Position numbers and translations under genes: made by a program
From: an uncultured Erysipelotrichaceae bacterium
GTDB taxonomy: Bacteria > Bacillota_I > Bacilli_A > RFN20 > CAG-826
Length of the DNA stretch: 64,000 nt
NCBI GenBank assembly: GCA_902802905.1
Contig: CADCNT010000005.1
Coordinates: 1 to 64,000, forward strand
Direction: 5' to 3'
Shown: one piece after another, positions 28,816 to 31,737 of the stretch
Layout of the letters: each line of letters opens with the position of its first letter
Position numbering within the stretch: the stretch's first letter is position 1
Notes under the pieces: model-generated
Told to the model about the DNA's origin: nothing
The model's database searches: none
The model's input: the letters and a program-made list of their open reading frames with translations, nothing else

Positions 28816-28915
28816 ATAATACCTCCAATAATCTTTCTTTAAATAATAAAGAACGGATTAACATTCGCTAGAATAATATATCATTTATGTATTAGTTTTT
28901 GCTAATACAAAATAG

Positions 28916-29539
28916 TTAATATTCTTGTTTTTCCTTCTTTTTTGTTTTTGCAATTACTAAAACTTCAATCTTTTTAGCTCCTCTCTTTTTTAATAAATCA
29001 ATACAACTCATAGCTGTACTACCAGTAGTAAAGATATCATCTACAAACAATATTTTTTTATCCTTCAAATCGACATTTTCGATTGCGAATATTTTGTTAA
29101 CTTCATATCTTTTTTTAAAAGACTGACTAGACTGTTTATGAGCCTCAATCTTTGTAATGATTGGTAGCATTTTTAACTTTAACGACTTGAAGATTTCCAC
29201 CACATGATTGAATCCTCTTTTTTCATCTTCAATATGATAAGAAGGAGCCGGAACAACATAATAACCGTGGTAATTAATCCTTAAATAATTAATATAGCGA
29301 TATAAAAATACATCCTTAAGTTCATAGTCATAACATCCTTTAAATTTATAGATTAATTCTTTTATGAAATCTGTATATTCATAAATCGAAATGGCTCTAA
29401 CAGATCCAATTTTAAAGTTAATAAATTTTGCCTCTAATTTAGCAAAGCAATTCTCACATAAAATGTTATTTTTACTAATTAGACTATATAAAGAATAGTC
29501 AGTTATTCTTTTAAAACAAACCTTGCAATAATTATCCAT
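28916..29539 (-). CDS. comFC: ComFC-like phosphoribosyltransferase-fold protein
   Basis: The 207-residue protein has an N-terminal zinc-finger-like pair (CKVCFKR and CENCFAK) and a C-terminal PRPP-binding loop ILFVDDIFTTGSTA (about 165-178). In naturally competent bacteria ComFC works with the ComFA helicase in uptake of transforming DNA. It overlaps comFA by 8 bases. Other competence genes are not in the window. It could also act in general DNA processing. Confidence 0.9.
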   Translation of the reverse strand: MDNYCKVCFKRITDYSLYSLISKNNILCENCFAKLEAKFINFKIGSVRAISIYEYTDFIKELIYKFKGCYDYELKDVFLYRYINYLRINYHGYYVVPAPSYHIEDEKRGFNHVVEIFKSLKLKMLPIITKIEAHKQSSQSFKKRYEVNKIFAIENVDLKDKKILFVDDIFTTGSTAMSCIDLLKKRGAKKIEVLVIAKTKKKEKQEY

Positions 29540-30680
29540 TTAATGCCTCATTAGATTTCATAATATCGTTAATTGCCGTCACCATACTCTTGGTGGTTTT
29601 TGATGCATAGAATATGACATCCCCAGTAGGCGCATCAGCTTTTCTGCCTGCTCTTCCTGCAATTTGGATTAAAGTGCCTTTTTCATATATTTTATGGTCA
29701 CTTTGACAAACAATTACCTGTAAATTTCTAACAGTTACACCTCTTTCTAAAACGGAAGTTGTTACCAAATATTGATATATTCCATGCCGAAAATTTTCTA
29801 TGATTTCATTCCTTTTATTCCGTTTAGAATGAACATAGTTACCTCCAGAAACAAAAGCATTCAAAATCTTAAATATTCTTTCACAAGAATCAATTGTCGG
29901 AGCAAAAATAAAAGCTTGTTTTCCTTCTTTCACATACCTTTTTAGCTTTCTTATGATTAGAACAAATTGAATTAACTTTTTTGCGTTTATAATGACAGGA
30001 ACAGGAAGTGGATGTCTATGAAATCTTGTATCTAATCTTAAGATGTCTTTGTTACTTCCTGAAAAATGATTTATCACTTCTTTTGATGGCGTTGCCGACA
30101 TCATTACATAATGTCCACATAATGATTTAAAAAACATTTCATGAAGTACAGGATCATTTTTGAAAGGAAAGGCATCAATTTCGTCTAGCACTATCAAAGA
30201 AAAGTAATTTTTAAATCTATATAGTTGATGTGTTGTTAAAACTACAATGTCTCCTTCTTTCTCTTTTGTATGTCCTCCGTAAAGACATATTACTCTATTT
30301 TTATTAAATATTTCTTTTAACCTATTATGTAATTCTATTGCTACATCTCTTCTTGGCAACGCAAAGGCAACTTTATCCCCACAATTAAGAGCATATTGTA
30401 TTATTTGCAAGCTTATTTCTGTCTTACCAGATCCACACACCGCAAAAACTAAACTATCAATACCTTTCTTATAGTTCTCAACCAACTTATCTGACAATTC
30501 CTTCTGTTCTGGAGATAGTTCATATTCTAGATATATAGGTGCTTTCTTTGGATAAGATGGTTTATGTTCTACTTCTTCGCCTTTAAAAGAAATGCATCTA
30601 CGACAATATGGCTTACCATTTAATATTCCTATCGAATGAATATCGGTGTTTCCACAAATCGGGCATTTGTAAGATTCCAT
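29532..30680 (-). CDS. comFA: ComFA-like DEAD-box helicase
   Basis: ComFA is an ATP-dependent DNA translocase in competence. The 382-residue protein has a four-cysteine zinc finger at the start (CPICGN...CRRCISF), Walker A AVCGSGKTE (about 81), LDEIDAFPF (DEAD-type box, about 168), SATPSKE and motif VI IQIAGRAGRKADAPTGD (about 338). It starts 116 bases after the small basic protein gene, with a structured RNA element in between. Confidence 0.92.
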   Translation of the reverse strand: MESYKCPICGNTDIHSIGILNGKPYCRRCISFKGEEVEHKPSYPKKAPIYLEYELSPEQKELSDKLVENYKKGIDSLVFAVCGSGKTEISLQIIQYALNCGDKVAFALPRRDVAIELHNRLKEIFNKNRVICLYGGHTKEKEGDIVVLTTHQLYRFKNYFSLIVLDEIDAFPFKNDPVLHEMFFKSLCGHYVMMSATPSKEVINHFSGSNKDILRLDTRFHRHPLPVPVIINAKKLIQFVLIIRKLKRYVKEGKQAFIFAPTIDSCERIFKILNAFVSGGNYVHSKRNKRNEIIENFRHGIYQYLVTTSVLERGVTVRNLQVIVCQSDHKIYEKGTLIQIAGRAGRKADAPTGDVIFYASKTTKSMVTAINDIMKSNEALNG

Positions 30681-30720
30681 ATTGAATTATCTCCTTTCTT
30701 TTGATTAAATATATCTACAA

Positions 30721-30807
30721 GTTGTCATGCAGAGCTAAATAGGCTCAGACAACAGCGCACCAATTGGCAGCTCGATCTGCCCGATGCACTAAGTCCCTAG
30801 CGGACTT
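30721..30807 (-). ncRNA. Structured RNA element between a small basic ORF and comFA
   Basis: On the minus strand three hairpins follow each other: AAGTCC/GGACTT over the upstream stop codon, then AGTGCATC/GGTGCGCT enclosing GGCAG/CTGCC, then GTTGTC/GACAAC enclosing GAGC/GCTC. The eight-pair outer stem of the second hairpin uses two G-U pairs that become C-A mismatches on the plus strand, so the functional RNA is probably minus-strand. It lies in the comFA leader. It matches no riboswitch class I know. Confidence 0.45.
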
Positions 30808-30814
30808 TTTTATT
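30791..30814 (+). terminator. Plus-strand terminator over the end of the small basic gene
   Basis: AAGTCC/GGACTT with a 5-base loop is followed by a T run on the plus strand (TTTTTATTTTTTT). No clear plus-strand gene ends here, so it either stops antisense transcription into the basic gene or is the first hairpin of the minus-strand element. Confidence 0.5.
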
Positions 30815-31171
30815 TTTTTCCAAATACTTTTTATATTTTTTAGTTAATTGAGGTTTCTTTCTTTTAATTAATTCAATTCTAGGTTTATCTACATTATCGA
30901 CTTTCAAACCAACTAATTCATGATCACCCAAATCTTCATGAGAAGCTATCACTGGTTTTTTATGCACAAAAGAAGCTTTTACAGTGATTCCAATCGGAAC
31001 TTTTAGCATTATTCTGTCATTTCTTCCTGTAGTATCAAAAACAACTATCCAATACTTATTGCTTTTACGATCCAGTCTAAAAACTAAGGATGGATGACCT
31101 AATCGGCCAGTATGGAACGTTGTATAAAATTTTCCTCTTAGAATTCTGATCCTTTTTCGTTTTTTACTCAT
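30797..31171 (-). CDS. Small basic protein of unknown function
   Basis: The 124-residue protein is very basic at both ends (MSKKRKRIRILRGKF and KPQLTKKYKKYLEKNKK). The middle is beta-rich, with GHPSLVFRLDRKSNKYWIVV and a later HKKPVIASHEDLGDHELVG. I do not recognise it with certainty; similar small basic proteins with an HPS motif occur in Firmicute genomes. I chose ATG 31171 because AGGAGGTG lies 6 bases upstream; an upstream in-frame start at 31231 is within the terminator region. It could bind nucleic acid. Confidence 0.7.
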   Translation of the reverse strand: MSKKRKRIRILRGKFYTTFHTGRLGHPSLVFRLDRKSNKYWIVVFDTTGRNDRIMLKVPIGITVKASFVHKKPVIASHEDLGDHELVGLKVDNVDKPRIELIKRKKPQLTKKYKKYLEKNKKVR

Positions 31172-31231
31172 TAGACACCTCCTTTCTGTTATGGATTTCA
31201 TGACTTTAGGAAGGTTTTGAAAAGCAATCAT

Positions 31232-31268
31232 TAAAAAACCCTCTCATATATATAAGAGGGAATTTTTT
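31232..31268 (-). terminator. Bidirectional terminator after rpiB
   Basis: CCCTCT/AGAGGG stem with a 10-base loop, TTTTTT on the minus strand and AATTTTTTCG on the plus strand. It ends the prfA-prmC-tsaC-rpiB operon. Confidence 0.8.
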
Positions 31269-31299
31269 CGAAAATTTTGAAAATTATTTTAATTTTTTA

Positions 31300-31737
31300 T
31301 TATTTTTCTATTTCGGATATTAGATCAACACGGGTTTGATGACGTCCGCCTTCAAAATCAGTTGATATAAATATATCAACTCTTCTTAAAACATCATTCA
31401 AATCCATGAACTTTTGTCCAAAAGCGATAACATTAGCATTATTGTGTTGTCTCATGAGTCTAGCTACATCATCGTTATAAGCGATTCCACATCTAACTCC
31501 TTTTACTTTGTTTGCAGAAATAGCGATACCTTCACCACTAGTGCAAACTACAACACCATAGTCACATTCTTTGGAAGCAACTTTTCTTGCGACAGCTTCA
31601 CCATAGATTGGATAATGGCATGAATCTAATGTATATGTTCCAACATCAATTACTTCATGTCCTTCATTCTTTAAATGCTCTGCAATGGCGTTTTTGTATT
31701 CGAGTCCACCATGGTCACATCCTACTGCAATCTTCAT
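31300..31737 (-). CDS. rpiB: Ribose 5-phosphate isomerase B
   Basis: RpiB interconverts ribose 5-phosphate and ribulose 5-phosphate in the pentose phosphate pathway. The 145-residue protein begins MKIAVGCDHGGLEYK, has the active cysteine in GVVVCTSGEGIAISANK (about 65) and the RHNNAN-like RQHNNANVIAFG (about 98). Length and motifs are those of RpiB/LacAB. It is 1 base after tsaC and the last gene of the operon. Confidence 0.95.
   Translation of the reverse strand: MKIAVGCDHGGLEYKNAIAEHLKNEGHEVIDVGTYTLDSCHYPIYGEAVARKVASKECDYGVVVCTSGEGIAISANKVKGVRCGIAYNDDVARLMRQHNNANVIAFGQKFMDLNDVLRRVDIFISTDFEGGRHQTRVDLISEIEK

Follow-up and report, generated by a model that had tools for sequence, protein, structure and literature searches.

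A candidate RNA antitoxin gene convergent with a predicted MazF-fold toxin gene beside comFA in an uncultured Erysipelotrichaceae bacterium

Background

Type III toxin-antitoxin systems (ToxIN, CptIN and TenpIN) are defined, in the passages of PMC5086642 used here, as bicistronic operons in which an RNA consisting of a repeat array lies upstream of the toxin on the same strand, one promoter serves both, and a Rho-independent terminator stands before the toxin. According to the same passages it is by this upstream repeat array and terminator that such systems have been recognised so far. Their RNA antitoxin is an H-type pseudoknot, encoded as tandem short repeats. In type I systems of Gram-positive bacteria the RNA gene is convergent with the toxin gene and overlaps its 3' end, and the toxin is a small hydrophobic peptide, a rule to which exceptions exist. 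The type II systems MazEF and Kis-Kid combine a toxin of the MazF fold with an adjacent protein antitoxin gene. The competence gene comFA is a known prophage target (Croucher et al. 2016, in the sections of PMC4774983 drawn on here).

Here we analyse a locus between rpiB and comFA in a stretch of 64,000 nucleotides from an uncultured Erysipelotrichaceae bacterium; this whole stretch is called the window. The best explanation for the locus is an RNA-antitoxin system that would work like type III systems, is built differently, and is carried by cassettes in which the comFA 5' end is duplicated. It resembles type III systems in the predicted MazF-like fold of its protein, with CptN among the structural matches, in a structured small RNA as the likely partner, in tandem RNA copies found in some relatives, and in having no protein antitoxin gene beside the toxin. 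It differs in that the candidate RNA gene of the window lies on the opposite strand, 3' of the toxin (divergent and upstream in the distant f27/g189 relatives), with its own predicted promoter and terminator. The toxins, of about 98-144 aa, have no Pfam match, and the fold modelled for the element, among nested structures, is a bulged hairpin. In the window the element stands as a single copy; three relatives have 3-4 copies, some of them weak by model score. As it fails the gene-order definition, we do not class the system as a type III member.

A convergent RNA gene overlapping the 3' end of the toxin is shared with type I systems, whereas the toxin of the window is a 124-aa basic protein with a predicted MazF fold, the RNA fold is conserved, and the f27/g189 RNA element does not overlap the toxin message. 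The predicted toxin fold is that of MazEF, but no protein antitoxin gene is adjacent, the neighbours being rpiB and comFA. As described for the comFA prophages in the consulted sections of PMC4774983, comFA is a repeated target of mobile DNA, here in the form of small single-ORF cassettes with a replacement comFA 5' end, stacked in tandem. Integron gene cassettes recombine at attC with the IntI integrase; the constant junction here lies in comFA and not in a hairpin. We found no description of this toxin-RNA arrangement among the titles, abstract openings and passages searched (including parts of PMC8860590, PMC6315513 and PMC5408214), and no account of comFA cassette arrays among the titles and abstract openings of the comFA literature and the sections of PMC4774983 covered.

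Results

Layout of the locus

On the minus strand the order is rpiB, the 124-aa basic protein, three hairpins, comFA and comFC. The features are as follows.

29532..30680, minus strand: comFA (context), named from its helicase domains, its neighbours and a cysteine motif seen by eye
30430..30680, minus strand: comFA nt 1-251, ending in the Walker A codons; the segment duplicated in the cassettes of relatives
30682..30687, plus strand: -35 box TTGAAT of the predicted RNA promoter, conserved at fixed spacing in the hand-picked elements
30702..30710, plus strand: extended -10 box TGATTAAAT; TGn precedes the -10 box in 41/44 elements
30717..30815, plus strand: predicted small RNA of about 100 nt, from promoter, hairpins and terminator
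30721..30753, plus strand: hairpin 3 (P3), with a 6-bp outer stem, a 5-nt bulge and an inner stem-loop
30754..30789, no strand assigned: hairpin 2 (P2), the fold being stronger on the minus strand
30791..30807, plus strand: hairpin 1 (P1), a predicted intrinsic terminator from the terminator scan, with a U-rich tail to about 30815
30797..31171, minus strand: basic protein, 124 aa, a predicted MazF-fold toxin from predicted structure and fold matches
31172..31210, minus strand: cassette leader, CCTAAAGTCATGAAATCCATAACAGAAAGGAGG and following; a similar leader follows the truncated comFA copies in the arrays of relatives
31239..31260, minus strand: terminator-like hairpin with an AT-rich loop before the toxin gene, from the terminator scan
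31300..31737, minus strand: rpiB (context)

The ORF list holds no other ORF of at least 50 aa between rpiB and comFA, hence there is no obvious protein antitoxin. The list is likewise empty of ORFs of at least 50 aa in the gap between comFC and secA (28816-28915), a place that in related bacteria is often occupied by a hibernation-factor gene.

The basic protein

The AlphaFold2 model of the 124-aa protein has a mean pLDDT of 90.1. When it was compared with the PDB by Foldseek, the first 22 matches were all MazF/Kid-type toxins, the best with E 0.0066 and none below 0.001. VIA-align gave Z 7.6 against MazF-mt9 (92 residues, 3.3 A) and Z 6.9 against the type III toxin CptN (4rmo_A; 105 residues, 3.6 A, 17% identity). 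It should be noted that an unrelated Tudor domain reached Z 6.4, and a Z of 7.6 by itself would be within the range that a common arrangement can give and is not proof. For a sister subfamily of 98 aa, linked to the window protein by iterated HMM search (E 0.001), Z was 10.8 against MazF-mt3, and all 50 matches shown were MazF-type or CcdB. Judged from these models the basic protein is probably an endoribonuclease toxin, and we infer that it is toxic to the cell.

Pfam, NCBIfam and PADLOC gave no hit for the window protein, its sole match in PHROGs was to a PHROG of unknown function (E 0.07), and a sequence profile retrieved nothing below E 0.57 from the PDB; nor did Pfam and NCBIfam return anything meaningful for 29 family members. 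The window protein has no relative in plasmids or viral contigs, and a 107-aa relative had no match in phage, plasmid or viral collections; PemK-like proteins were among the weak matches in the BFVD viral structures.

A search with the single sequence found relatives in 29/146 genomes of the same family, and one with an alignment of 29 sequences found them in 44/279 genomes of the order, 42 of these in the same family. At the level of the class there were relatives in 13/395 genomes, four of which belong to another family, f27. The distribution is patchy, often with several copies per genome, and intact toxins of the family measure about 98-144 aa. The 13 named records of relatives are from uncultured Bacilli, some of them titled rumen or reticulum. 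The genome of the window itself has a second toxin copy (G000:C16:36412-37018), which is flanked by an RNA element on each side.

Fold and strand of the three hairpins

The three hairpins reported in the preliminary description are present, and the first does overlap the stop codon of the basic protein (30797-30799). Its count of eight pairs with two G-U pairs for the second hairpin on the minus strand is true if the innermost pair is omitted; the P2 outer stem has nine pairs on that strand, three of them G-U. Region 30681-30820 folds on the minus strand with -37.2 kcal/mol and z -2.52, 0/200 shuffles being as good, and less strikingly on the plus strand (z -0.99), while for the tighter region 30715-30817 z is -4.24 on the minus strand and -1.88 on the plus strand. 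This preference of the whole element is due to P2 with its G-U pairs, and from the second hairpin alone the minus strand had earlier been assigned. As an assignment for the whole element this fails, as the plus strand carries a promoter-like sequence and an intrinsic terminator (30791-30807). P3 taken alone (30717-30757) has z -2.88 on the plus strand against -1.50 on the minus strand. We regard a plus-strand RNA in the window as likely, not certain, on the evidence of the sequence.

Comparison with relatives bears on the strand as well. The outer stem of P3 shows compensatory changes between GTTGTC and CCTGTC types, and a P1 variant in two relatives (L018 and L042) pairs on the plus strand only. 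P2 is nearly invariant in the relatives that have it, and therefore shows no covariation. Conservation of the hairpins in relatives, on which the preliminary description had let its proposal depend, was found: three relatives of the same 124-aa toxin subfamily keep all three (G038, G097 and G148, the toxin frame being broken in the last), and relatives with other toxin subfamilies have other hairpin types. The reported absence of tandem repeats holds for the window, where the element is a single copy, but not for some relatives, which have tandem copies. At the gathering threshold Rfam gave no match for the window or for five loci of relatives; a weak match to trypanosome mitochondrial rRNA (E 0.036) was taken as chance in AT-rich sequence.

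Promoter and terminator

On the toxin strand of relatives a hairpin is followed by a conserved TATTAAAnCAAA, the complement of which is an extended -10 box, TGnTTTAAT, on the opposite strand. From 77 automatic hairpin hits we picked by hand 44 elements, the one of the window included, by their A-tract, their -10-like motif and their likely origin; the remaining 33 had the look of coding sequence or of chance hits. On the opposite strand the 44 follow the pattern TTG-17-TGnTTTAAT, with the -35 letters T in 41/44, T in 44/44 and G in 40/44. The -10 motif was part of the selection and the -35 box was not, and the table of the 44 promoters keeps one row (L006 1453) whose -10 box was anchored wrongly. 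Each hairpin is preceded by an A-tract, and read on the opposite strand this A-tract supplies the U-tract of an intrinsic terminator.

A pattern derived from the window and its relatives, TTGMAT-N14-TGnTTWAAT, has a single mismatch-free site in the whole genome (1.54 Mb), namely plus-strand 30682-30710; with at most one mismatch allowed the count rises to 9 sites, and the reversed pattern gives 5. From the -10 box, the RNA would start about 7 nt downstream, near 30717. A terminator scan of both strands of 30600-31300 found two terminator-like sites against 0.3 expected, namely the plus-strand 30791-30807 and a minus-strand hairpin at 31260-31239. A general promoter scan by the same tool, which applies other criteria, gave no plus-strand promoter between 30600 and 31300.

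Terminator-like hairpins with a TATATATA-type loop were seen by eye before many toxin genes, including the one at 31239-31260 in the window. They may be promoter-terminator hybrids, or terminators before the toxin, and the hairpin of the window may also end the rpiB transcript. In many copies, again by eye, the RNA terminator and the lysine-rich tail of the toxin share the same A-tract, which would be a dual use of sequence. In the subfamily of 128-144-aa ORFs (L042, L085 and L026) the coding sequence of the toxin itself contains, at its 3' end, a hairpin and a promoter-like sequence.

RNA elements in relatives

Opposite to the toxin strand, 37 of the 44 elements fold better; 6 fold better on the toxin strand, 5 of which belong to one class (GTTAGTG), and 1 is a tie. 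We aligned 20 related, hand-picked sequences on the opposite strand; the 14 pairs of the alignment are 96.1% paired, and in 7 of them both sides have changed. On four of the five measures of covariation 0/500 shuffles scored as high, and the fifth, the number of further pair types, was not above shuffles (252/500). A G-U pair is kept in 20/20 and a U-G pair in 19/20, both of which would be A-C mismatches on the toxin strand. The folds of one class have a bulge of 4-6 nt in 19/20 cases and a GAAA loop in 2/20. A toxin-strand RNA containing TATTAAAnCAAA had also been modelled (covariance model R1); it had 5 pairs changed on both sides, with 0/500 shuffles as high, and was overturned by the strand comparison and the fit to a promoter.

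Within 260 nt behind the stop codon, the opposite-strand promoter matches at least 10/11 letters in 47/63 toxin-family copies, or 23/33 clusters at 80% identity, leaving 16/63 copies with no clear match; two of 65 copies had less than 200 nt downstream and were left out. The same letters at this threshold occur on the toxin strand in 2/63 copies and behind 18/261 control ORFs, a set that comes from the same loci and so includes some of the same promoters, and that leaves out ORFs of at most 200 aa with HP near the start, as possible toxins.

The preliminary description had suggested a covariance-model search of relatives. Model R2, built for one RNA class, found 28 places in 19/279 genomes, although the element of the window itself scored poorly (18.6 bits, E 2.1). 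In 26/28 matches a toxin-family ORF lies in the fetched locus, and the other two stand, as judged by eye, beside a toxin remnant and a YhcG-like fragment. This association is partly circular, as most of the training elements of R2 are among the 28 matches; promoter motif and RNA model were also read from many of the same loci. In the model searches that scored the tandem copies and the element of the window the sources overlap, which makes their match counts redundant. A fair test is G046, which is absent from the training set and where the model led to a distant toxin member (E 1e-4) convergent with the RNA.

Tandem RNAs behind single toxins were found in G146 (4, with period 93 and 3.0 copies), G221 (4) and G077 (3). 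By model score the G221 copies have E 0.004-3.8, three of them weak, and the third G077 copy has E 4.4. At G000:C16 and G110:C2 there are RNA elements upstream of the toxin, and in some relatives such elements persist next to toxin remnants. At L211 (G126), positions 1350-1800, two tandem RNAs were seen by eye beside an apparent C-terminal toxin remnant and no toxin, with a 425-aa ORF on their other side.

Three genomes of f27/g189 have a hairpin with a U-tract upstream of the toxin, divergent, behind a TTGACA promoter. Judged by eye this is the same kind of RNA. Lying upstream and divergent it cannot pair with the toxin message, and pairing with toxin mRNA is unlikely as the general mode. Among five more distant relatives only one reaches 10/11 promoter letters, and no hairpin follows there. 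G418 (of f27) and G111 have a convergent promoter, hairpin and U-tract, their promoters matching 9/11 letters, below the threshold of at least 10/11.

comFA cassettes

Of 20 regions fetched, 17 hold comFA sequence, and 9 of these 17 contain 16 truncated comFA copies that break off near nt 251, within the Walker A codons; the other fetched regions have shorter comFA fragments or none. Each truncated copy runs into a shared leader (about CCCAAAGACACGAAAnCCATAACAGAAAGGAGG), behind which stands a small ORF, usually followed by an RNA element and then by a fresh 5' end of comFA. The position of the junction is accurate to within a few bases, as some ends were extrapolated up to 15 nt from the BLAST ends. 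The junctions may go back to site-specific insertion in comFA or to a single founding event spread by homologous recombination; the first letters past the junction still resemble comFA. Many of the cassette ORFs are toxin-family members and some are DUF1016/YhcG nucleases. We infer that recombination within the duplicated segment of comFA, or at the end of that segment, mobilises the cassettes. In the window the cassette leader (31172-31210) is still present, but a truncated comFA copy is not.

In L092-L110 tandem cassettes lie in the interval between rpiB and comFA; each has a small ORF, in most cases an RNA element, and a duplicate of the comFA 5' end. DUF1016/YhcG nuclease genes stand in the same cassettes at L104 2660-3652 and L107 574-1578, and at 4481-4804 of L094 (oriented) a like gene is, by eye, cut at a TGTGGTTC|CCC junction resembling that of comFA. 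The truncated comFA copies often end in frame as GSPKTRNP-stop, likewise by eye. The first codon of full-length comFA is ATA and not ATG in 12/13 listed loci, with the ribosome-binding site kept; in the window it is ATG.

Discussion

Most likely the locus holds an RNA antitoxin gene convergent with a MazF-fold toxin gene. In our reading, to which we give a probability of roughly 0.55, the two form a toxin-antitoxin unit. The minus-strand gene 30797-31171 would encode a basic protein of MazF/CptN-like fold, a probable endoribonuclease toxin. The plus-strand gene at about 30717-30815 would be transcribed from its own promoter, end at its own terminator and yield a short bulged-hairpin RNA. This RNA would neutralise the toxin, and the likeliest way is by binding to the protein, as type III antitoxins do; base pairing between the two convergent transcripts may be a further means of control. 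On this reading the RNA would be made, be the antidote and act on the protein. Action on the protein is favoured by the tandem RNAs, by RNAs lying upstream of toxins or beside remnants, and by the divergent f27/g189 element. The preliminary description had rated an RNA partner of the basic protein as a weak idea; of its proposals this is now the best supported, given the predicted MazF/CptN-type fold and the tandem RNA copies. More tentatively, we propose the wider picture of MazF-fold toxins accompanied by autonomous convergent bulged-hairpin RNAs, in stackable cassettes that each bring a fresh comFA 5' end.

The closest alternative, which we consider unlikely, is a type I-like RNA, antisense in cis, that would bind the 3' part of the message for the toxin (and comFA) and block or degrade it, its structure mattering little beyond termination. 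The 3' end of the predicted RNA does overlap the toxin stop codon, and the RNA would be complementary to a read-through message; convergent overlapping pairs are described in Clostridioides difficile (in the sections of PMC6563280 used here). Against this, the copies upstream of toxins at G000:C16 and G110:C2 and the f27/g189 element have no overlap with the toxin message, RNAs are retained next to toxin remnants, and the protein is basic with a predicted MazF fold and is no small hydrophobic peptide.

It is improbable that the hairpins are only a terminator or bidirectional insulator, stopping stray plus-strand transcription between cassettes, and that the protein, whether toxin or regulator, has no RNA to partner it. 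In favour of this reading, hairpin 1 makes a good intrinsic terminator, and covariation would be expected of any terminator hairpin. A terminator needs neither a promoter-like sequence at fixed spacing before the hairpin, nor tandem copies, nor the recurring bulge of 4-6 nt (19/20 folds of one class).

The view of the preliminary description, a minus-strand structured comFA leader or a 3' processing element of the basic-protein message, is very doubtful. The more stable minus-strand fold of the window element (z -4.24) speaks for it and is owed to the G-U pairs of P2, but in the window no U-tract follows any of the three hairpins on the minus strand, and P1 and P3 variants of relatives, compared by eye, lose pairs on the minus strand and keep them on the plus strand. 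Similar elements also lie behind toxin-family genes away from comFA, and together with a promoter and terminator on the opposite strand this leaves attenuation of comFA and processing of the upstream message unsupported. An attC-like folded recombination site that moves the cassettes, the RNA not being the active form, is hardly credible. The elements do recur between cassette ORFs, some without ORF, but the constant junction of the arrays is about 250 bp away in comFA and not in the hairpin, and the letters that are conserved match a sigma promoter whose boxes are 17 bp apart. An IS605-like end was considered for the element and dropped.

Conclusions

Searches that rely on an upstream repeat array and terminator would miss systems built in this way. 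If the RNA-antidote reading is confirmed, small RNA genes on the opposite strand may control MazF-like toxins that lack a protein antitoxin, which would give a concrete search rule for orphan toxins. The comFA arrays would then represent a small mobile unit directed at a competence gene, the 5' end of which it renews. If the wider picture is true, the locus would accumulate RNA antidotes, some of them without a toxin, beside a gene for DNA uptake, and addiction modules would guard or exploit natural transformation.
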